A DNA stretch of 45,269 nt from Thermovibrio sp. (GTDB lineage: Bacteria; Aquificota; Aquificia; Desulfurobacteriales; Desulfurobacteriaceae). Location: assembly GCA_015488335.1 (NCBI GenBank), contig WFNZ01000001.1, positions 1-45,269 of the forward strand. Reading direction: 5' to 3'. The translations under genes and the position numbers were made by a program. A model generated the notes under the pieces. It made no database searches, was not told the origin of the DNA, and worked only from the letters and a program-made list of their open reading frames with translations. Positions 2,380 through 26,436 of this stretch are shown one piece after another (within the stretch, counting starts at the first letter, position 1; the number at the start of each line of letters is the position of its first letter).

Positions 2380-3474
2380 TTGCAAAAGGTCAACTTAATT
2401 GTTGAGATACTTAAGGTTCTATCTGAGAGGGGAGGGAAATTTATAACAACAACCGAGATTTTCAAAGAGCTTAAAGAGAGGGGAGTTCTGGAGAAAGGCT
2501 CTGAAAGGGAGCGAGCCGAAAGGAAAAGGCTCCAGAGAGCACTCTCTGACCTTTTGGAGGGTGGATACGTTGAGAGGCGGTTCTTTAGGACAAAAGGTAA
2601 AAGGCCTGACGAGTGGAGGATAAACCTTAAGGCCTTTCCCTATTTCGTTTCATACTCTGAGGAAGAGCTCATCTCCCTCTTTACCTTAATCTCTTTTGTT
2701 CCGGGGAAATACAGAGAGATTGAGGTCTTAAAACCTGCTTTAAGGGCTGTAGAGCGGCTGGGAAAGAGTTTAGATCGGGAAAAGAAAGAGATTGCAAAGG
2801 AATCGTTTGACTACCTTCCCATTCCCGTAGAGAGGTTTGCCTTTATCTCAAACGGAACCCTTCAGATGATTTTTAAGGCTATAGTTGAAAAGAGAGGGCT
2901 TATCGTTAACTATGCAGGCTATCAGAAAGAAATTTTCCCGATAAAGCTCTTTACCTACAACGGCGTTTTCTACCTTTCAAGTATTGATTTAAAGACAAAA
3001 CAGCACCGATCTCTACTCGTTCAGAAGATGAAAGCCCTGAGTTTTACAGATGTAGACCTTCCAGACTACTACAGGCAGAAGTTTAAGGATGTTTATTTTC
3101 CCTTTGATAGAGACCCGTTTGTTCTGAAAGTTCGTCTTCCTGCCGACTACTACAGAGACGTCAGGCCTGAGCACGGAATACTCCTCTACCCTACCCAGTT
3201 CAACTACAGGCTCTTTGAAGATGAGGTGGAAATTCTCCTTGTAGGTTATCCCAGCTACCGGTTTGTCAGCTGGCTTATTTTAGACGAGCTCCTCTCCGTC
3301 TCTCCCCCAACTGAGGATGACATAGAGATAGCTAAGGAGAAGAAGATAAAGAGAGAGTTTCCCGGGCTGAGCTACAGCCTGAAAGTCAACAGGGAGAGGT
3401 TTGAGGCCTTTAAGAAAGAGCTTAAGAGGTTTTTTGATGTGAGGAGCTCCCTCCTGAAAAAACTCTCCATATGA
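2380..3474 (+). CDS. WYL-domain transcriptional regulator
   Basis: 364 residues starting from a TTG with GGGAGGGAG just upstream. Residues 1-75 hold a winged helix-turn-helix (IVEILKVLSERGGKFITTTEIFKEL, then a Lys/Arg-rich recognition stretch). The centre has a WYL-type fold: GLIVNYAGYQKEIFPIKLFTYNGVFYLSSID matches the pattern 'Y......PI.L....G.WYL.', with VFYL in place of WYL. The C-terminal 100 residues resemble the WCX extension. WYL proteins usually sense a ligand, in several cases nucleotide or ssDNA, and repress or activate neighbours. It diverges from the small membrane protein-surE operon across 49 bases that contain the inverted element CCTCCGGGAGG, a possible operator. Confidence 0.8.
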   Translation: MQKVNLIVEILKVLSERGGKFITTTEIFKELKERGVLEKGSERERAERKRLQRALSDLLEGGYVERRFFRTKGKRPDEWRINLKAFPYFVSYSEEELISLFTLISFVPGKYREIEVLKPALRAVERLGKSLDREKKEIAKESFDYLPIPVERFAFISNGTLQMIFKAIVEKRGLIVNYAGYQKEIFPIKLFTYNGVFYLSSIDLKTKQHRSLLVQKMKALSFTDVDLPDYYRQKFKDVYFPFDRDPFVLKVRLPADYYRDVRPEHGILLYPTQFNYRLFEDEVEILLVGYPSYRFVSWLILDELLSVSPPTEDDIEIAKEKKIKREFPGLSYSLKVNRERFEAFKKELKRFFDVRSSLLKKLSI

Positions 3475-3532
3475 GCCAGATTCTGGGTTATTGAGTTCTT
3501 AAGCTAAAGAAAACGGTTAAAAGGAGGGGGCT

Positions 3533-3778
3533 ATGGCTGTATTTATCTGTTCCCGTTGTGGAGCTATGGTGGAGAGCTCCGGAACTCCCAACGTTTCCGG
3601 CTGTTCTTCAGGTTCCCACGTGTGGCACAGGGTTTGCGACAGAGGGGGAATTACCCCTCAGCCGGGAACACACCCGTATCAGTGTAAAAAATGTGGAAAA
3701 GTTGTTTACTGCTCTGGAACTCCCTACTCTTCAGGTTGTCCTTCAGGGGGTTCTCACGTGTGGGTAAGGCTCAGTTAG
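3533..3778 (+). CDS. Tandem zinc-ribbon-like small protein (81 residues, internally duplicated)
   Basis: The protein is two copies of one module. Copy 1 (residues 1-37) has CSRCG, then SSGTP, SGCSSGSHVW. Copy 2 (residues 49-81) has CKKCGKVVYCSGTP, SSGCPSGGSHVW. Each copy supplies CxxC, a later Cys and a His before a Trp, enough to form a zinc knuckle. There is no signal peptide and the protein is small and cytosolic in character. A good Shine-Dalgarno (AAGGAGG) precedes the ATG. It sits after the WYL regulator, with its stop overlapping by four bases the stop of the opposing zinc-ribbon gene. I recognise the module style but no named function; binding to nucleic acid or protein is a guess. 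Confidence 0.75.
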   Translation: MAVFICSRCGAMVESSGTPNVSGCSSGSHVWHRVCDRGGITPQPGTHPYQCKKCGKVVYCSGTPYSSGCPSGGSHVWVRLS

Positions 3779-3954
3779 GGCCTACCCTTTACTCTTGAAA
3801 AGTAGTTACAGGTGGGGTTTGAGCAGACGATAAACTTCCCAAAAAGTGTTTCAACAAGAAAGAGGGAGTGGCCGCACCGAGGGCACGGCCCGAAAACGGG
3901 GATTTTTACGACTCCTATTCTTTTTATTGTTTCCTTTAGCAGAGGATTAAGCAT
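3775..3954 (-). CDS. Small topoisomerase-type zinc-ribbon protein (59 residues)
   Basis: A 59-residue reading frame, short enough to be missed by length filters. The peptide MLNPLLKETIKRIG leads into CPRCGHSLFLVETLFGKFIVC and CNYFSRVKG. The pattern CPxCG..L......G.F..C....C.Y is the C4 zinc ribbon found repeated at the C-terminus of bacterial topoisomerase I and in stand-alone small proteins. The ATG overlaps the stop of the YkvA-like gene by eight bases (ATGCTTAA), so coupled translation is likely. Its stop overlaps the stop of the opposing tandem zinc-ribbon gene by four bases. Function is unknown; single-stranded nucleic acid binding is plausible from the domain family. Confidence 0.75.
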   Translation of the reverse strand: MLNPLLKETIKRIGVVKIPVFGPCPRCGHSLFLVETLFGKFIVCSNPTCNYFSRVKGRP

Positions 3955-4345
3955 TTTCTCTTTGCCTTCTCCATTCTCTGTACTTTTCTAAGTCCTCTTC
4001 CACTAAGTAGAGGCAGATGCTCACAACTAAGGCGTCGTCCACCTGGCCTATTATGGGAATGAAATCGGGTATCAGGTCTACCGGGTTAAGGACGTAGAGG
4101 AGTGCTGCCGTGATGGCGGCAACTGTAAACCACGGAACGTCTGTGTATTTTCCGGAGAAGAAGTCCTTGAGCAAGGAGAAGAAGTCTTTAACGTCTTCAA
4201 AGAACCTGCTTAAGGGTCCCTTGAGCTTCCTCTCAATCTCCTCTTGCCTCCTTAGAACTTCCTCAATGTCCTTTTCTGTTATCCTTGATGCGTTCTCCCT
4301 TAAGACCTTTTCTGCTTCTTCCCTTGAAATTTCCTTCTTTCCCAT
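3947..4345 (-). CDS. YkvA-like membrane protein (DUF1232)
   Basis: 132 residues. The N-terminal 70 residues are highly charged and helical (EISREEAEKVLRENASRI, then an IEEVLRRQEEIERKLKG stretch). The DUF1232 core follows: LLYVLNPVDLIPDFIPIIGQ and DDALVVSICLYLVEEDLEKY. The 'NP.DLIPD.IP.iG..DD' signature is diagnostic for this family of small membrane-associated proteins, whose role is not established. It is 58 bases downstream of hemW and coupled to the zinc-ribbon gene after it. The spacer to hemW holds an AT-rich TAATATAC element that could be a local -10 box, but no convincing -35 was seen. Confidence 0.85.
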   Translation of the reverse strand: MGKKEISREEAEKVLRENASRITEKDIEEVLRRQEEIERKLKGPLSRFFEDVKDFFSLLKDFFSGKYTDVPWFTVAAITAALLYVLNPVDLIPDFIPIIGQVDDALVVSICLYLVEEDLEKYREWRRQRENA

Positions 4346-4403
4346 TTCAGCCTCAGATTCGGTTTCTAATGTATATTAACGGGAATTTACCCCGAAATCT
4401 GTC

Positions 4404-5528
4404 TCAAAAGAGGACATTTATCAGCTGGGAGATGACGCTGTTTGAGACGAAAAGACCTTTTTTCCCCAACCTCAATCTGTTCTTTTCTATTTCTATCAGC
4501 CCTTCTTCTATCAGGCCTTTAACGATTTCAGACTTTTCAAGGGCTTCTTTAAACCTCTCTTCAAGCCCAATCTCTTTTAAGTTTACTCCCTCTGTGAGCC
4601 TTAAGCCCATTATGAGCTTGAGTTTTTTCAGATCTTCTCCTTCAAATATCTCTTCTTCCTGTGTTGGGAGCTCCCCCCTTTCCACCTTCTCTACGTACTC
4701 CTTTATGTTGCTAACGTTCTTCCAGTATTTATTAACGTAGAAAGAGGCAGCCGATGGGCCAAGGCCTAAGTAGTTCTCAAGCTTCCAGTAGTTGACATTG
4801 TGCTTGCTCTCAAAACCGGGAACTGCAAAGTTTGATATCTCGTACTGCCTGAAACCTCTCTCTTCTAAAAAGGAGATAGCCTCTAAGTAGATTTCGTAAA
4901 CCGTTTCCTCCTCAGGCAGTCTGAACTTACCCTCTGAAAGTTCTTTAAACAGCGGTGTTTCCTCGTAGACCGTAAGGGCGTAGAGGGAGACGTGGTTTAT
5001 CGGAAATGAGAGGGCGGTTTCAAGGTTTTTCAGGAAATTCTCAACGGTTTGGCCGGGAGCTCCGTAAATAAAGTCAACGGAAACATTTGAAAATACTGAA
5101 CAAACGGTTTCAAGAGCTTTTAGGTTGTCTTCTGGAGTTTGCCTTCTTCCAAGGGTTTTAAGGGTTTCTTCAGAGAAGCTCTGAATTCCTAAACTGATTC
5201 GGTTTACCCCTATTAGAGAGAGCTCCCTCAGTTTCTCCTTTTCTGCATCTTCAGGGTTGAACTCAACGGTTACCTCTGAGAACTGCCCCACCTTAGAGAG
5301 GATTGACTCAAAGAAGGCCGGCTCCATCAGTGATGGAGTTCCGCCACCAAAGTAGACTGTTGGGAACTGGGAGAGCTCTGGCCCTCTTATAGAAAGTTCC
5401 CTGATAACGGCTTTCCTATAGGGATGTTTAAGTTCTAAAAAGCTACCTGAGTAGAAGTCGCAGTATCTACACTTCTCTCTGCAGAATGGGACATGGACGT
5501 AAAGTGACTTAAACGTTTCCCTTCTCAA
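4404..5528 (-). CDS. hemW: HemW-type radical SAM protein
   Basis: 374 residues. The radical SAM cluster motif is at the N-terminus: YVHVPFCREKCRYCDF (C16, C20, C23), and the glycine motif FGGGTPSLM follows near residue 62. Later elements RISLGIQSF, VSVDFIYGAPGQT and the HNVNYWKLENYLGLGPSAAS stretch match HemW/HemN. The HemW subgroup is distinguished by CxxxCxxC without the extra Cys of HemN and by its shorter length. HemW is a heme chaperone rather than the oxygen-independent coproporphyrinogen oxidase proper, although it is often annotated as such. The TTG start lies inside the end of the TPR gene (20-base overlap). Heme handling fits with the multiheme cytochrome elsewhere in the window. 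Confidence 0.9.
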   Translation of the reverse strand: MRRETFKSLYVHVPFCREKCRYCDFYSGSFLELKHPYRKAVIRELSIRGPELSQFPTVYFGGGTPSLMEPAFFESILSKVGQFSEVTVEFNPEDAEKEKLRELSLIGVNRISLGIQSFSEETLKTLGRRQTPEDNLKALETVCSVFSNVSVDFIYGAPGQTVENFLKNLETALSFPINHVSLYALTVYEETPLFKELSEGKFRLPEEETVYEIYLEAISFLEERGFRQYEISNFAVPGFESKHNVNYWKLENYLGLGPSAASFYVNKYWKNVSNIKEYVEKVERGELPTQEEEIFEGEDLKKLKLIMGLRLTEGVNLKEIGLEERFKEALEKSEIVKGLIEEGLIEIEKNRLRLGKKGLFVSNSVISQLINVLF

Positions 5529-6996
5529 GTTCCTCTATCTTTTCCTGTAAAGCTTCATCTTTTAGAACCTTCTGGGCTTCCCTATACCAGGAGAGAGCTT
5601 TTTCTTTATCTCCCATAAATTGGTATATCTCTCCTAACTTAACCTTTAGTTTCGCTTTATCTTCTTCCGTGTAGTCCTCTCTTTTTAGCTCGTCAAAGAG
5701 AAAGGCGATGGCCTCTTTTTCTCTGTTCTGCTGTTTCATTATCTCGGCAAGGAGAACCGCTGCTTTTGGCCTGCACTCTGTATCTAATGCTTCTCTTGCT
5801 TCCTCTTCCGCCTTCTTCAACTTCCCTATTCCCATGAGAGCTTCTGCAGCAGAAATAAGCCTTTTCCCATCTTTATGTTTCTTCAGCGTGAGGACTTCTT
5901 CTTTAATTTTCCTGGGTGGTTCTTCTTCCTTACCGCTTATGAAATCGTTGACCAGCTCGTTTATGTCAAGAACCTGATCAAGGACTTCTAATATCTGTTC
6001 AGGTTCGGGGAGCTCCTCCTCTTTTGAAGCTTCAACCGATAGCGATAGTTCCTCTTCTGGTCTAACTGCCTTTAAGTATGCAACAATTCTCTCGTAGAGG
6101 TTTTTGTCTATCAGCTGTATCTTGTTAAGGTACTCTTGAGCTTCTTCCACTTCTCCTAACTCGTAGTTTATTAGGGCAAGGAGCGTGTACTTGACTTTCG
6201 GTAGGGGAACGTTTGATACCAGTGATTTCAGGAAGTCTAACCTGCCTGCTTCCTTAAATTGAGATACTATAAATGTTAGGAAATTAAAGTCGTCTTTGTG
6301 CTCTTGAAGAAGCGTAAGGAGGATGGACTGAACTTTTGGATTCTCCATGTAAGAGATGGTCTCTATCAGATGTTTATCAAGAGCTTCTGTTGTTTTGATT
6401 CTCCTTGCCTTCAGGAAAGACCTTAGAGCTGCCGGGTAGTTTCTGAGGTTAATGTACATGTTTCCTGCAAGTATGAAGTTGACGAGAGCGTTCTCTTTAT
6501 CTCCCTTTTCAAACAGCACATCGCCGTACTTTTCGTAGAATACCGGGTGAGAGGTATCCTTCAGGAAGCTCTCAATCATCTCTTTAAGTGTTGATGTATT
6601 TATCCCCGTCTCTTCCATTTTCTGGAAGGCATCTAAGAGAACGTTAAAGGCGTCGTAGTAGAGTTCTTTTCTCTTAAAGGCATTTGTGAGGAGTTTTATT
6701 GCCTTCAGGTTCAGGGGATCTATCCGGAGGGCCTTTTTTAAGACCGGAATTGCAACGTCGTAGTACTCTTCTTCCAGTTTTCTTTCAGCAAATGAGATAA
6801 GTGTTGATACAGCCTCATCTTTTCTTCCTAACTTGACGAGAGCATCAACGTAGGGGTTTAAAACTGATATTTGATCCGGTTTCTTCTCAAGGATTGTCTT
6901 GCCGAGCTTTACTACTGTCATGAAGTCCTGGTTTTTTACAGCCTCCGAAAACAGTTCCTCGTCGCTCTTTTTTCTGAAAAAGTCAAACAGGCCCAA
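5509..6996 (-). CDS. TPR-repeat protein
   Basis: 495 residues built of helical hairpins. Canonical TPR segments include residues 75-110 (YYDVAIPVLKKALRIDPLNL) and the C-terminal stretch LKVKLGEIYQFMGDKEKALS. An acidic linker around residues 320-370 separates an N-terminal from a C-terminal TPR block. There is no signal peptide; MGLFDFFRKKSDEELF is typical of cytosolic TPR scaffold proteins in thermophiles. The start is a TTG at 6996 with GGGGGAAACA upstream. It leads the operon with hemW, suggesting a partner-binding role there, but no client can be named. Confidence 0.8.
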   Translation of the reverse strand: MGLFDFFRKKSDEELFSEAVKNQDFMTVVKLGKTILEKKPDQISVLNPYVDALVKLGRKDEAVSTLISFAERKLEEEYYDVAIPVLKKALRIDPLNLKAIKLLTNAFKRKELYYDAFNVLLDAFQKMEETGINTSTLKEMIESFLKDTSHPVFYEKYGDVLFEKGDKENALVNFILAGNMYINLRNYPAALRSFLKARRIKTTEALDKHLIETISYMENPKVQSILLTLLQEHKDDFNFLTFIVSQFKEAGRLDFLKSLVSNVPLPKVKYTLLALINYELGEVEEAQEYLNKIQLIDKNLYERIVAYLKAVRPEEELSLSVEASKEEELPEPEQILEVLDQVLDINELVNDFISGKEEEPPRKIKEEVLTLKKHKDGKRLISAAEALMGIGKLKKAEEEAREALDTECRPKAAVLLAEIMKQQNREKEAIAFLFDELKREDYTEEDKAKLKVKLGEIYQFMGDKEKALSWYREAQKVLKDEALQEKIEELEKGNV

Positions 6997-7027
6997 TGTT
7001 TCCCCCGGAGGTTCTGGATGTCAATGT

Positions 7028-7033
7028 ATTATA
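7028..7033 (-). promoter_or_regulatory. Possible -10 box for the TPR-hemW operon
   Basis: The minus strand reads a perfect TATAAT here, within the near-palindrome TGTATTATATTACA, 32 bases before the TTG start of the TPR gene. A good -35 box at 16-18 bases was not seen, so this rests on the -10 match only. The same AT-rich core could serve the divergent HhH-GPD-like gene. Confidence 0.35.
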
Positions 7034-7062
7034 TTACAGTGAACCATAATGGGAGTTTAAAA

Positions 7063-7941
7063 ATGAAAGTTGACCTCCGGCTGAATCCAGATAGGGCGAG
7101 GGAGGTGGCTTTTTTACTCCTTGAAGCTCTTAAAACCAACGGAATTTTTGGCCACAAGGAGCTCCCCGACGATGCAGTGAAAGAAGTGGCTAAAGAGCTT
7201 GATAGGGATACACTTCTTCTAATTGTTACCTATACAACTGCACTTGACTACATGAGAAACGCCGAGGAGCTGTGGAAAAGCTCCCTTAACACCCTGAAGG
7301 ATGAGGAGGTGAACTGGGTTTTTGACCCAGATTCTGTTGTAAAAAGGGGAAAAGAGGAGCTCTTAAGGGCTCTGGAGAAACACGGCCTTGCGAAAAAGAA
7401 ACACAGGGACGTGGATATATGGTTCACCATTTCAGAAACCCTCTCTAAGAAGTACGGTGGCAAACTGACAGCCCTGTTTGAGGAGTACAGTTACGATGTG
7501 GTTTCAATGTTTGAGGACTTCTTGAAGAATAGAAAGGAGGAGTTTCCTTCCCTCTCAGGTATGAAGATATTTCCCCACTGGATAAGGAGCTTAAAAGAGA
7601 AGGTTACCATTCCAGTTAAAAGAGTGGAAGAACTTCCTATTCCTGTAGATGTTCACGTTGCAAGGGCAACTTTCACTACCGGCTGTATAACCGGTAGGTA
7701 TTCTGCCAAGGGGATAACGGAGACAGTGAAGAAAAAGGTTATTGAAGTGTGGCGGGAAGGTTTAAAGGGAACGGATATAGCTCCCATAGAGATGTTCAGA
7801 CCTCTCTGGCTTCTCTCAAAACACGGCTGTCACTACAGGAAGGACGGAGAGAGGCCAAAACTGGAACAGTGCCCCGTTTCTTCTTTCTGTGTTGACGGAA
7901 AAGTGGTTGTTACTTCTAAGAGAGTGGAGATTGATACGTGA
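7063..7941 (+). CDS. HhH-GPD superfamily-like protein (possible DNA glycosylase)
   Basis: I choose the ATG at 7063 (GGGAG upstream); the frame extends further left but without a ribosome site. The product has 292 residues. Residues 161-205 look like the helix-hairpin-helix and following strand of the EndoIII/AlkA superfamily: FPSLSGMKIFPHWIRSL, then LPIPVDVHVAR, where D196 occupies the place of the catalytic Asp in the 'PVDTHV.R' motif. The C-terminus has C256, C270 and C276 (HGCHYRKDGERPKLEQC, then PVSSFC), which with C208 could bind a metal or Fe-S cluster as in EndoIII. The assignment is from motif shape only. It leads the prepilin-coiled coil-argF run and diverges from the TPR gene. Confidence 0.5.
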   Translation: MKVDLRLNPDRAREVAFLLLEALKTNGIFGHKELPDDAVKEVAKELDRDTLLLIVTYTTALDYMRNAEELWKSSLNTLKDEEVNWVFDPDSVVKRGKEELLRALEKHGLAKKKHRDVDIWFTISETLSKKYGGKLTALFEEYSYDVVSMFEDFLKNRKEEFPSLSGMKIFPHWIRSLKEKVTIPVKRVEELPIPVDVHVARATFTTGCITGRYSAKGITETVKKKVIEVWREGLKGTDIAPIEMFRPLWLLSKHGCHYRKDGERPKLEQCPVSSFCVDGKVVVTSKRVEIDT

Positions 7942-20439: not shown

Positions 20440-23400
20440 ATGGGAAGGAAGTGGAAGAGGAGTAGCCTTTCCCTGACGACAGGCTTTATAATGTCTGCGC
20501 TTCTATCGTCTCAGGGTCTGGCACAACACCCGTCTGTAAAGCTTATTGACATCTACGGAAACGTTGAGAAAAACGTTATTGACAAGCCAGACAATTTCAA
20601 AAACAAGTTTGATACGACCACAACTCCAGATACTCTTACTGTAAAAGACAAAAACGGCAACGATGTAACCCTTTACAAAGGAACTCCTATAAGCTTTGAA
20701 AAGTCCTGTGGCCAGTGTCACGAGAACATCATTACAGACATCAGAGCTTCCCACCACGGAGCTGTTGGCCTTCACGACATGGGCTGGATGGACAACAGAG
20801 AGACCTACGGAGACGATACGGGAGCCAAGGACTTCGTTACAAACGTAGTTCTCAAAATGCGCTACTTCAGATCAAAATCCCACTACGGGGGCTGGTGACC
20901 ACCTTCTTACCGCCAGTTGGCGGCCAAAAAACCACTTCAAGACCCTGCAGTTCCAAACGGAGCAGTTGACGGAATCAACCCAGCAGATCCTTCTGCCTAC
21001 AAAGGTTTTAACTTTGACATGGGAACTCCAACCCACAACATCACCTGTAACTCCTGCCACGCAGGCGGTGGTTCGGCCGAATTCGGAAGGGAAAACAAGC
21101 CCCTTGATGAAGTTCTGAAAGATAGATTAAAAAGTGACTTTGATAAGCTTAAGACAAAAGATTGGTTCGTTCGTGATGATCAGATTCTTGCCGAAATAAA
21201 CTCTTTTATTCCTTTTGATGGAGACCTGTTTGGATATTCAGACTACGAAGTTGGTGCAGGTTACATAGGGAAGCCGGGGCTTTTCAACTTTGCCCGTTCA
21301 GGTGTTAACGATACAGACTGTTTCATGTGCCACTCAAAGGCTGATGCTGATTCAAAGATAAAAACGGAGATTAACGGATACGTTCAGCAGCCCATAATGC
21401 CCTCAAACCCAAGGGTTATGGTCTTTAAAGGTATCTCCGATGATGGAGAGACAATTGTTCTGTCCCTTGGAATTCCGCCGAAAGTTGGAGAGAAGATAGA
21501 AGTAGGGAAGGATCAGAACGGCAATCCAATTTATAAAACGGTTGCGAAAGTTGACTCTGCTTACTACAACTCCGTTCCCCTTTCTGTTCTTAAAGCTCTT
21601 TATCATCTCTCAGACGACCAGTTGAACGCTATTAGGAGCAACGATGGTTCCTGGTCAAAGTTCTTCATTTATCCCAACAACGCCAACGGTGCAACAAGAG
21701 AAGTTGCAAGGGTAGCCTACTTTGAACACCCTTCTTCTACAGCAGATAAAGACGGCGGAGATGTTTACGTAAACGGTGGTGCTGCAACGTTCCACGACGA
21801 TAACGGGAATGTCGTATACAGAACGTTTGCAGGTTTCTTCTTCAAATACATCTCAACAGCCGACCTTATGGGCGTTGATACAGATCACGATGGCGTTCCT
21901 CTTGCCTATGTCCGCTTTGTTAAGGAAGACGGCGTCTGGAAACCGGAAGTTTACTACGATAAGGACGAGTTCAACTCTAAGGGAGAAGTTGACCTTCCTG
22001 TTCTTGAAAACAGGGTTGGTGATAAGGATACTCCGTCAACGAAGGTTCCTCCTGAGAATTACACCTACTCCGTTCCTAAAAGGGATGAGAAGGGTGATTT
22101 GATCATTTCGGAGAAGAACGGAGTCCATCAACCAGAGATGACCTCTGGTTCAGATAACAGGAACTGGGGTTATGTCTGTTCTTACTGCCATATGGCAATT
22201 CCCTATAAGGACGGAAAACTTTCAGATGGAAGTGATACATACGCCTGGGTTACAAGGAAAGGAACTTTAGGGCTTGGTGCTGAGATAGTTAAGAGAGGAG
22301 ATGTCTTTTCCTACGATATCCACAGGGGAAGTGATAACGGAGAAAACCTTGAACCGACAGACCTTCAGCAAACTCTTCAGTCTCAAGGGTTTGATGCAGC
22401 TTACAGGAAGATGATTACAGCAAAGTCTGTTCTCTCTATAAACGATGACATTCCAATTGGTTATGACGTTCACTTTGACAGTAAAGATGGTGCCGGTTTA
22501 ACCTGTCTCTCCTGCCACGGAGAGGGAACGCTATCTCCTGAAGAGAAGCAGTATCACCCGATTCACCACGACTTCCTGAAAGGAAACGACTGGGGTGGCC
22601 ACTGGGATCAATCATTAGACTACAACCCGTCTCTTAAGACCTGTTTAGACTGTCACTTTGGCGGCTCAAGGCAGTTGGCTGCACAGGTTCACAGGAGTGC
22701 TTTTGGTCCCGGAGGAAATGCAGCTATCCATATGGATAAGGTTGCTTGTGAAGTCTGCCACATTCCGTTCAAGACTCACTGGACGTTCAGGACCTTCTAC
22801 GATGCTGTTGGCTACTCTTACAACTTTGACAACAGGATACTCAACTACGATCTAAACAATGGAACTGTTCAAAAACTTCCAGAGAGTATGTTTACTCCAG
22901 GATTCGGACCGTTTATGCCGATTGGAGGGTATGGAGCTCCCCAGCCCTTCTGCATAGTCAGAACCGACAGCGGTAAGGATACAGTTGTTCCAATCTACCA
23001 GGCAGACTTTGACCCAAGACAGGCTGCCTTAAGACTTGAGAATAAGAACTTTGGAATCTGGGATGTTCCAGACATCTCCTTCCCATGGGCCTGGGCACCG
23101 GTTATTATCAACAACGGCTTCAGACCAGATACTCCCGGTGGTCAGAAGTTCATGTACAGGCTTGCGGATCCGCTTACTCTTGTAACCTGGTATGACAAGT
23201 CAACAGGGAAAGTTCTCTACACCCGTGAAATCGCTGCCGCTTTAGATGGAGCAGTTAAGTCTAACTATGCCGGAAAGAACGTTCCTGCTTACTACATCCA
23301 TAACGGAAAGGTTTGTGTTAAGACTATAAAAGGAGACTGGATCTGTGACGACAACGGAGATCTCCTGCCGGAGATAGATACGAATGCTGAATATGAGGCA

Positions 23401-25050
23401 ATGAGAAATGCCCTCATAGATGTCCTTAAGAAAGAGGGAGTTCACAACCCTGATCCTGTCTTCTACATCTGGACGGCTCCGTTCAGCATAGACCACGGCG
23501 TTCTTCCCAAAGAGTACGCCCTTGGTGCAGGTGCAACAGTTAACGGTGAAACGCTCAACTGTGAAGTTTGCCACGATGCTAAGAACGGAAGACTTCCTGA
23601 AGCTAACATGTCAGACATTCAGAGCAGTAGTGCTCTGAGCTCCTTGATTAAGAAGGATCCCAATGGTCATATCAAGTTCTTTGGCCTCGGTAGGAAAATT
23701 GTTACTGTTCCGTCTGCAATTCCGCCTGAGGCTTATAAGAACGCTGTAAGGGTATTCTTCAACTCTCCTGAAGATGAGAACGGCAACCCGGTTTACGGAA
23801 CTATGACAATCAAGGTTGCCGGTCAGGAGAAAGACATCAAGGTAATGTATACAACTGCAGGAGATATCCTTGTTAACGCCCTTACCAACGGAATAGATAT
23901 CAACAGACACCTTGTTCCGATTCCCGTTGAGAGCTCCGGAATTGAAGGTATCGCATTTGCCCTTCCCGGTAGAGAGTCAACCTGGAAGATGAAGATTGAA
24001 GGAGTTGAAACGGAAGTTGAAACAGAAGCTCTTAAGGATGATGAAGTTCCAAGAAGAGCTCTTGTTTACAGGCTGAAGAACGAAATGACGGAGCTCCTTG
24101 GATTTGAACACCTTGCAGATGAGATTATGTCTGCAGGTGGGTCAGACCTCGTTCCTGTCTTTACTCCTGTAATTCCATCTGAGTACATAACTAAGATGGA
24201 CTTCAACCTCTCTGACCTGAAAGTTGCTGATCCTGCAGACCTTTACATCAACTATGCGAGAATTCACAAAGTCAGGGTATCTAAGGGAAGTGACGTTCAC
24301 TATGAGCTTGATAAAGAGAACTTCAAGCCTGCATCAATTTCTGTTAAGGATGCGATCCTGAAAGGTTGGGCTTCCTACGATCCTGCAGAGGGAGTTTTAA
24401 CGGTTAATACTGCTGCTATGGCCGAGGAAGTCCCAGGAGAGGGAGAGCTTGTATTCTCCGTTATGAGAAAGACAGGAACAGAGGTTACAGTTCCATCTGA
24501 AATAGATATTGTTGAAAAATCCTCAAATGAGGTTAAGGTGAATGTTGTTGTTTCAGGAGAGAAGAAACCGGTAACTGTTACAACCGATGCTGAAATTTCT
24601 GACGTTCTTGAACCGCCTCAGCTTTTAAGGTTTGCTTCAGAACACAATCTCAAGAAGGTTGTTTTAGGAGTGGAGCTCCTCAGCGATAAGGAGTCTTTCA
24701 GCGTAGAATTTGACGTTGACGGCCTTGTAGATCCAAATAAGGCCGTTGCCTATGTAACTGTTAACGGTAAGACTGAAAGCTGTAAGCCGCAGTTAGAAAG
24801 TGGCGTTCTTAAAGTTGACTACCCATGCTCTGGAACCAGGGCGGTTACGAGAGCTGAAACCCCTGTAACGGTTGTTTTAGGAGAATCTGAATCTACACCT
24901 ACGGCTACCAGCAGCACAGTTTCCGGAGGCGGTGGCGGTGGAGGCTGTTCTGTAGCTCCTTCTGCACCTGCTGGAAACGGCCTTCTGAACTTAGGAGTTC
25001 TCCTCTCTGGCCTCTTAGGACTCTTTGGCTTTAGAAGGAAGAAGCACTAA
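20440..25050 (+). CDS. Exported octaheme c-type cytochrome with in-frame UGA (candidate selenoprotein)
   Basis: A single frame of 1537 codons broken only by TGA at codon 153 (20896-20898). Residues 1-28 are a Sec signal peptide (SLTTGFIMSALLSSQGLAQ). Heme motifs CxxCH: 90-94 before the TGA; then 203-207, 294-298, 580-584, 689-693, 735-739, 770-774 and 1041-1045. The local sequence is SKSHYGGW-U-PPSYRQL. The frame after the TGA has no ribosome site or signal peptide, so independent expression could not yield a matured cytochrome. Beta-rich domains fill residues 1050-1480. The tail is Gly-rich, then GGGCSVAPSAP, a hydrophobic helix and FRRKKH, like GlyGly/Cys-type CTERM sorting signals. It has its own promoter-like leader and a strong terminator. 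Readthrough as selenocysteine is favoured; a disabled gene is the alternative. Likely a cell-surface or periplasmic redox protein; substrate unknown. Confidence 0.85.
20893..20934 (+). promoter_or_regulatory. SECIS-like hairpin immediately after the in-frame UGA
   Basis: CCGCC (20910-20914), loop AGTT, GGCGG (20919-20923): a five-pair G-C stem with G in the first two loop positions and 16 bases from UGA to the loop, at the near edge of the known range for bacterial SECIS elements. A lower stem can form between TGGT (20893-20896, including the U of UGA) and ACCA (20931-20934), with A-U pairs between. Found by eye; not folded. Confidence 0.6.
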
Positions 25051-25134: not shown

Positions 25135-26436
25135 ATGAAAAGAGCTCTCCTCTTAACATTTTTCTTCCTCCTCTCAGCCTGCGGCACGCAGAGTTCGGTT
25201 TCTGAGAAGACAGAAGTTTCTAAAGGAAAGACTCTTCAACCTGTGAGAGAGAAAGTCTGTTCTCCCGATACAGTTCTTGCAGAAGGGAAGGGGCTAAGAA
25301 TAACACTTTCAGATTACAAATACGTGGAAAAGCTGTTGAGTAATAAGTCAAAGGCCTTTTTCTCTGCCCACCCTGAGGAGCTCCTCAGGAGAATGGTAAA
25401 CCGGAGATTGGTAATTAAATACGTTGAAGACTCTGGCCTTGCAGATAAGTACGGCTTAAATAAGGAGATAGAAGCTTTCAAAAAGGACTACCTTTCCCGC
25501 CTTTACGTTTCAAGAGAGGCGGCAAAGCGCTTAAAACCTGTTACAGACGAAGAGATTGTAAAACGATTTAAAGAGCTCTTCCCTAAGAAAGATCCTTCTA
25601 AAATGAGCAAGGGAGATAAGGAGTTTATAAGGAATGAGCTGAGGGTCAAGCACTACGATGAGGCCGTTGCGTCTATTTACGGTGAAGTTGAGAAAAAGCT
25701 GAAGTTTTCTAAAAAAGGCAATCTTTTAACTGTTAGCTGCTGCGGTATAGAGCTCTCCCACAAAATTAAAAAGGGAGAGGATGAAAAGTTTGTGAAGAAC
25801 CGGTTAAAAGAGGATTTCTTCAAGGAGTATTTCTACAGGAAGGCTCTTAAGATAGGCCTTGATAAGAATCCTCAGTTCCGGAGAATGTTGACAGAGTATT
25901 TTGCGACTAAAGCAATAGACGTTTTCAGGAAAGAGCTTGAGAAGGGGATAACTGTTTCTCCTGAAGAGGTTAAAGCCTTTTACCAGCAGAACAGGGATAA
26001 GTTCTTCATGCCCGACAGGGTAAAGGCCGTTATTATCTTAGTTGACAGCAAGAAAAAGGCGGAAGAAGTTAAGAAGCTCCTTGAGAGCGGTAAACCCTGG
26101 CAGGAAGTTGCCAGACGTTTTGCAAACTTTAGGGCGCAGCCGAGGTTCTACTTTAAGGATACGAAAGACCCTGTTGGAGCTCTCCTCTTTGCAGAGGGGA
26201 AGCCCAAAAAGGGTAAAGTCGTTATAGCCCAGTTTGGAGACAAAACCTTTGCAACCATTTATGTTCTTGACTACGTTCCCGGCGGAGTTCTTTCCTATGA
26301 AAGGGTTAAGAAGTATGCCGGGATTGTTTTAAAGAGGGAAAAGCTGAAAGAGGCAGAGGAGAAGAAACTGAAGGAGCTCTGGAAGAAGTATGACGTTAAG
26401 CTTGAGAACTTAGACTGTATTAAGGGGAGCTCTTAG
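25135..26436 (+). CDS. Lipoprotein peptidyl-prolyl isomerase (SurA/PpiC-like)
   Basis: 433 residues. Lipobox LSAC with C16 as the lipidation site after a hydrophobic signal. Residues 70-160 are a SurA-type N-terminal chaperone helix region (EELLRRMVNRRLVIKYVEDSG and on). A long charged helix leads to a parvulin-like domain from about 285 (VSPEEVKAFYQQNRDKFFMP, then VKAVIILVDSKKKAEEVKKL and PWQEVARRFAN). The usual parvulin 'GGDLG' stretch is not clear, so isomerase activity may be weak. The Cys pair SCCGIEL is unusual. As a periplasmic or outer-membrane chaperone it could help fold the large cytochrome upstream. It lies after the cytochrome terminator with GGAGG before ATG; a TATACT at 25104 could be its -10. 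Confidence 0.8.
   Translation: MKRALLLTFFFLLSACGTQSSVSEKTEVSKGKTLQPVREKVCSPDTVLAEGKGLRITLSDYKYVEKLLSNKSKAFFSAHPEELLRRMVNRRLVIKYVEDSGLADKYGLNKEIEAFKKDYLSRLYVSREAAKRLKPVTDEEIVKRFKELFPKKDPSKMSKGDKEFIRNELRVKHYDEAVASIYGEVEKKLKFSKKGNLLTVSCCGIELSHKIKKGEDEKFVKNRLKEDFFKEYFYRKALKIGLDKNPQFRRMLTEYFATKAIDVFRKELEKGITVSPEEVKAFYQQNRDKFFMPDRVKAVIILVDSKKKAEEVKKLLESGKPWQEVARRFANFRAQPRFYFKDTKDPVGALLFAEGKPKKGKVVIAQFGDKTFATIYVLDYVPGGVLSYERVKKYAGIVLKREKLKEAEEKKLKELWKKYDVKLENLDCIKGSS

Follow-up and report, generated by a model that had tools for sequence, protein, structure and literature searches.

An in-frame UGA in an octaheme cytochrome gene of Thermovibrio: a probable surface selenoprotein akin to octaheme tetrathionate reductase

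Two families of multiheme cytochrome selenoproteins are listed in a 2026 review, namely, ExtKL (NF040886) and a TIGR04315 protein; the selenocysteine (Sec)-containing TIGR04315 protein WP_331457571.1 is given there on its GenBank annotation alone (PMC13188914). TIGR04315 is the NCBIfam model of octaheme tetrathionate reductase (OTR), represented here by Shewanella SO4144 (PDB accession number 1SP3). Desulfurobacteriaceae are sulfur reducers with porin-cytochrome clusters (PMC4245776), through which electrons could cross the outer membrane, and published work on their sulfur reduction favors cytoplasmic enzymes, for which polysulfide would have to be imported (PMC12724263). The stretch of Thermovibrio sp. 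DNA analyzed here (contig WFNZ01000001.1, positions 1 to 45,269; 45,269 nucleotides; hereafter, the window) contains a gene for an octaheme c-type cytochrome that is interrupted by one in-frame UGA. The sequence comparisons described below leave very little doubt that Sec is encoded by this UGA, which is conserved, is accompanied by a Sec insertion sequence (SECIS), and occurs in a genome that has every component of the Sec machinery. The gene product is probably a selenoprotein that is exported to the cell surface, and we assign a probability of roughly 60% to the reading that it is a surface-anchored, Sec-containing OTR-like reductase that acts on substrates with S-S bonds.

The reading frame (Table 1) encodes 1536 residues, and its sole internal stop is the TGA at codon 153, which bears out the claim of an earlier note on this DNA that one UGA and no other stop breaks a single frame. 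The CxxCH motifs (n = 8) are located at residues 90, 203, 294, 580, 689, 735, 770, and 1041; as that note had stated, the TGA separates the export signal and heme 1, which precede it, from hemes 2 to 8, and no export signal is found downstream. A GGAGG ribosome site is positioned just 5' of the ATG at 20440. The second open reading frame obtained by mechanical gene calling would begin with a TTG at 20917. This codon, the first downstream of the TGA that resembles a start, is 477 bases past the ATG, the distance given in the note; since it lies within the SECIS hairpin, it is not a plausible start.

All nine other loci found in a species-level genome collection carry TGA in the context GGW-U-PPSYRQLA. 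Orthologs of the gene (family A) are present in 14 of the 22 genomes of Desulfurobacteriaceae, with some records shared with the nine loci, and each of the 14 has exactly one TGA, at the same place. The codon is TGA in every independent assembly. Chance does not account for a TGA whose position is shared by nine other assemblies and by 14 of 14 orthologs. Two paralogous families likewise have eight hemes and a TGA between hemes 1 and 2, i.e., family B (complete genes of about 1250 to 1520 amino acids; GAW-U-PPSYRQLA) and family C (about 810 to 925 amino acids; GKL-U-PPAYRQLA), and, with family A included, the TGA occupies the homologous place in a total of 36 distinct genes, all from Desulfurobacteriaceae (Aquificota). 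Judging from the differences per codon position (first/second/third, 0.21/0.12/0.42 before the TGA and 0.20/0.14/0.49 after it), the DNA upstream and downstream of the TGA evolves like coding sequence.

Family D, a fourth paralog, also has eight hemes; it has no TGA, and a Ser encoded by TCA, AGT, or TCT is aligned to the Sec site. In the family D genes of the source genome (L057:899-4309, contig C60) and of L070 and L072, the SECIS is absent and the heme register and the conserved Lys described below are kept, so that family D is a natural Sec-to-Ser replacement. Families A, B, and D are represented in the source genome. When OTR was included in a tree as the other group, A plus B and C plus D formed two clades (support for C plus D, 98/95), from which Sec would have been present in the ancestor of the four families and lost once, to Ser in family D, if OTR is the outgroup. 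In families C and D, an EF-hand-like loop (e.g., DINGDGKI), perhaps a calcium site, follows heme 4 (L059, L063, and L066). No TGA-bearing cytochromes were found outside Desulfurobacteriaceae in one contig scan with patterns from close relatives or in 136 Aquificota genomes, and a plasmid search with the family A protein gave no match. Four genomes of one genus, g3, are without the Sec families; three of the four carry an OTR-like protein, with a Cys at the corresponding place in the two that were read complete. In these two octaheme proteins (L111 and L113, in genomes G009 and G011), the Cys is part of YNDYC and a membrane helix is located at the C terminus, and the similar gene in G010 (L112) has a TAA inside.

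The hairpin CCGCC-AGUU-GGCGG, directly after the TGA, has 5 base pairs and a loop of 4 nucleotides (-9.4 kcal/mol); the spacing from the UGA to the loop is 16 nucleotides, and the second nucleotide of the loop is G, followed by U. It is within all limits of the published bacterial SECIS (bSECIS) model, from which the criteria were taken (PMC13188914). In family C, the outermost pair is absent and four pairs are kept. The codons TAC CGC CAG TTG GCG that span the hairpin are identical in the 36 distinct genes, whereas the nucleotides of the adjacent PPS/PPA codons vary. Within each of families A, B, and C, these are the only run of at least three positions that is invariant in both residue and codon; elsewhere, the codon-invariant share of residue-invariant degenerate columns is 7.9% (family A, 14 genes), 4.9% (family B, 12 genes), and 1.7% (family C, 9 genes). 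This constancy is all the sharper because TTG (Leu), GCG (Ala), and CGC (Arg) are minority codons in these cytochrome genes. The pattern TGA-N9-TACCGCCAGTTGGCG gave 36 matches in 17 of the 22 genomes, every one at these cytochrome loci, and the reversed-pattern control gave 0 matches in the 22 genomes.

The source genome encodes tRNA-Sec (selC, 81.7 bits), SelB (444 bits), SelA (619 bits), and SelD (377 bits), i.e., all four components that the earlier note had named, and its proposal that the UGA specifies Sec is supported by this machinery together with the conserved TGA, the predicted hairpin, and the codon invariance. The SECIS, families B to D, the relation to OTR with its Lys-ligated catalytic heme, the C-terminal sorting-like tail, and the earlier listing of Sec multiheme cytochromes (PMC13188914) go beyond what that note described. 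The SelD gene (G000:C31:11962-12888, L077) is itself a UGA gene with one TGA (ASG-U-GAK), after which a hairpin, CCC-GGUC-GGG, is observed. Scores above the cut-off were obtained for tRNA-Sec in 20 of the 22 genomes and for SelA in 21; the two genomes that lack tRNA-Sec (G005 and G021) keep SelA, and the gap is thus probably one of assembly. TGA is the ordinary stop of 7 of the 22 genes in the window, and the genetic code is therefore not simply changed. The family B Sec gene of the source genome directly follows prfB (L056:1862-2881 and 3041-7462, contig C54), whose product, release factor 2, is the competitor of SelB at UGA.

Kinship with OTR emerged from profile comparisons. Pfam identified only fragments, corresponding to Cytochrome_C7 and MtrC/MtrF domain II/IV (36.6 bits), and a search of PDB sequences with the family A protein alone gave no match. 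The profile built from families C and D (A2) finds OTR (1SP3) with an E value of 7.6e-5, and hhalign gave 99.7% against four OTR sequences and 98.0% for the N-terminal halves. All eight heme columns coincide with the eight of OTR in four of four MAFFT modes. An invariant Lys (EIVKRGD in family A, DVVKR in B, MKEA in C, and FFKRA in D) lines up with Lys153 of 1SP3 (GGGDAVKHGD); three of these modes show this for 41 of 41 rows, and the remaining mode for 29 of 41. We take Lys153 to be the ligand of heme 2 in OTR, and the Lys ligand of this catalytic heme appears, on alignment, to be kept in families A to D. The OTR sequences examined have one invariant nonheme Cys between hemes 1 and 2 (Cys64 of 1SP3); in families A, B, and C, the same interval contains no Cys or Sec apart from the CxxCH motifs and the Sec itself. 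The Sec falls on this Cys in the N-terminal hhalign comparison, both global and realigned local, and in MAFFT G-INS-i, and it is likely the counterpart of Cys64.

Several points weigh against the proposed OTR-like selenoenzyme. The match to TIGR04315 is partial, with 30.5 to 44.6 bits against a cut-off of 375. The L-INS-i, E-INS-i, and --auto modes do not place the Sec on Cys64, since the alignment between hemes 1 and 2 is rendered ambiguous by inserts. The earlier note had expected close homologs with Cys at the UGA (GGWCPP type), and none were found; all close homologs (families A, B, and C) have Sec at the site, family D has Ser, and Cys is seen only in the distant OTR. The hairpin is invariant across the genes, so that covariation provides no test of it. 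The AlphaFold2 model of family C (heme-free, 11 sequences; pLDDT 36, pTM 0.25) is unusable, and the substrate is a guess drawn from the kinship with OTR and from the sulfur metabolism of Desulfurobacteriaceae.

In the OTR-like reductase that we propose, the Sec would stand at the place of the invariant Cys of OTR, beside heme 2, and would form the catalytic pair with the Lys-ligated heme 2. The selenolate may attack the S-S bond of polysulfide, elemental sulfur, tetrathionate, or a similar acceptor; alternatively, the Sec may ligate heme 2 transiently. Electrons from H2 oxidation would reach heme 2 along heme 1 and hemes 3 to 8, and the C-terminal tail would anchor the mature protein on the outer surface. 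A wider proposal, which we put forward only tentatively and with the odds against it, is that Desulfurobacteriaceae use a set of Sec-dependent octaheme reductases on the cell surface to respire sulfur in solid or polymeric form, by means of a selenolate beside a Lys-ligated catalytic heme, and that the Sec came from the ancestor of the four families and gave way to Ser a single time, in family D. To our knowledge, heme-selenolate chemistry of this kind has not yet been described.

A surface Sec octaheme reductase would provide a direct alternative route for electrons to sulfur, and a well-known catalytic multiheme fold would gain a selenium counterpart. The Cys, Sec, and Ser of OTR, families A to C, and family D, respectively, make up a natural series for asking what Sec adds. 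Mechanical gene calling splits such genes at the UGA into a short heme 1 fragment and a leaderless remainder, so that redox proteins that rank among the largest in these vent chemolithoautotrophs are easily misread.

The alternative that survives best, although we consider it unlikely, is an extracellular electron conduit for metal or mineral reduction of the kind represented by MtrC and OmcA, with the Sec acting as a redox tuner or as an axial ligand to a heme. The Pfam match to MtrC/MtrF is in its favor, as are the very large size of the protein, its surface-type tail, and the porin-cytochrome clusters of T. ammonificans and D. thermolithotrophum (PMC4245776), and the family B gene adjoins such a cluster in one genome. 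However, the MtrC/MtrF match is limited to hemes 5 to 7 and part of the preceding stretch, an enzyme is suggested by the one-to-one heme register and by the Lys of OTR type at heme 2, and conduits are not known to require Sec. The adjoining cluster is found in G008 (L127, C1:336000-354000), in which the family B Sec gene is convergent with genes for a porin-like protein, two 7-heme cytochromes, a 6-heme membrane cytochrome, and a 28-heme cytochrome of 1026 amino acids; it is absent beside family B in G018 (L128), and the link was dropped as an argument.

It is quite improbable that the cytochrome is instead a cell-surface Sec enzyme that detoxifies, for example, peroxides, nitrite, hydroxylamine, or selenite/tellurite. 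Sec is common in peroxidases, and OTR has nitrite and hydroxylamine among its further substrates (PMC11024163), but the several paralogs per genome and the very large size suggest bulk respiration, and the ExtKL model NF040886 matched none of families A, B, C, and D at E values up to 10. A pseudogene, a sequencing error, or a translational restart, with the UGA as a real stop that leaves two proteins or none, is rejected as extremely improbable: it could appeal to the ordinary TGA stops of the window, but against it stand the TGA kept in 36 genes, the coding-type evolution on both sides, the SECIS, the full Sec machinery, and the leaderless downstream part with its first start codon inside the SECIS. 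A UGA read as Trp or a similar ordinary amino acid is rejected as equally improbable; this reading could appeal only to the open frame itself, and against it stand the termination of other genes at UGA, a hairpin that fits the bSECIS rules, and the Cys in the homologous interval of OTR.

The coordinates of the gene and its neighbor are listed in Table 1. The GGGC of the C-terminal tail is conserved in families A, B, C, and D; the JDVT-CTERM tail model NF033191 gave 21.2 bits for family B (cut-off, 27), and an MrtJ-like protease scored 48 bits (cut-off, 75). Of 13 other loci checked, 12 have the Rotamase_2 gene next to that of the cytochrome, and the one that does not (L017) ends inside the cytochrome gene; the Rotamase_2 product may help in periplasmic folding of the cytochrome. 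The surroundings consist of the housekeeping genes valS, recA, recX, alaS, and nusA, and the genomes nearest to the source are metagenome-assembled genomes of Desulfurobacteriaceae/Thermovibrio.

Table 1. Positions in the window of the cytochrome gene, its predicted elements, and the adjacent gene
Feature	Position	Strand	Remarks
Sec-containing octaheme c-type cytochrome gene (family A)	20440..25050	+	1536 amino acids; UGA read as Sec
Signal peptide MGRKWKRSSLSLTTGFIMSALLSSQGLAQ	20440..20526	+	Assigned by eye; GGAGG ribosome site upstream
Heme 1 motif CGQCH	20707..20721	+	
In-frame TGA, codon 153	20896..20898	+	Predicted Sec; GGW-U-PPSYRQLA
Five codon-invariant codons, Y-R-Q-L-A	20908..20922	+	TAC CGC CAG TTG GCG, over the hairpin
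Predicted bacterial SECIS hairpin CCGCC-AGUU-GGCGG	20910..20923	+	Stem 20910-20914/20919-20923; loop 20915-20918
Heme 2 motif CNSCH	21046..21060	+	Aligned with the Lys-ligated catalytic heme 2 of OTR (PMC11024163)
Heme 3 motif CFMCH	21319..21333	+	
Heme 4 motif CSYCH	22177..22191	+	
Lys618 (EIVKRGD)	22291..22293	+	Aligned with OTR Lys153 (DAVKHGD); candidate heme 2 ligand
Heme 5 motif CLSCH	22504..22518	+	
Heme 6 motif CLDCH	22642..22656	+	
Heme 7 motif CEVCH	22747..22761	+	
Heme 8 motif CEVCH	23560..23574	+	
C-terminal sorting-signal-like tail	24925..25047	+	GGGGGGGC, then hydrophobic stretch and RRKKH; JDVT-CTERM/MYXO-CTERM-like
Peptidyl-prolyl isomerase (Rotamase_2)	25135..26436	+	

Among known systems, OTR shares with the Sec families the eight CxxCH motifs in one-to-one register, the conserved Lys after heme 4, the single nonheme chalcogen residue between hemes 1 and 2, and heme 7 and 8 motifs such as CxxCHIP and HxxxPxxxAL-CxDCH. 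The Sec families differ from OTR in that Sec replaces Cys, in their length, which is about 2 to 3.5 times greater and includes large inserts, and in an additional C-terminal domain with a sorting tail; in the tree, they form a clean separate clade. MtrC, MtrF, and OmcA have in common with the Sec cytochrome the partial Pfam match and a probable surface location, whereas the Sec cytochrome has eight hemes rather than ten, the OTR register, Sec, and a C-terminal anchor in place of the lipoprotein anchor of MtrC/MtrF/OmcA. ExtKL is likewise a Sec-containing family of multiheme c-type cytochromes. WP_331457571.1 is similar in having, by its listing, a Sec in an OTR-family octaheme cytochrome; it is filed under TIGR04315, whereas families A, B, and C lie below the cut-off of that model. 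No paper on families A, B, and C was found in the open-access literature. Sec-containing multiheme cytochromes are thus a kind already on record, to which families A, B, and C add a form that reaches the cut-off of neither listed model.

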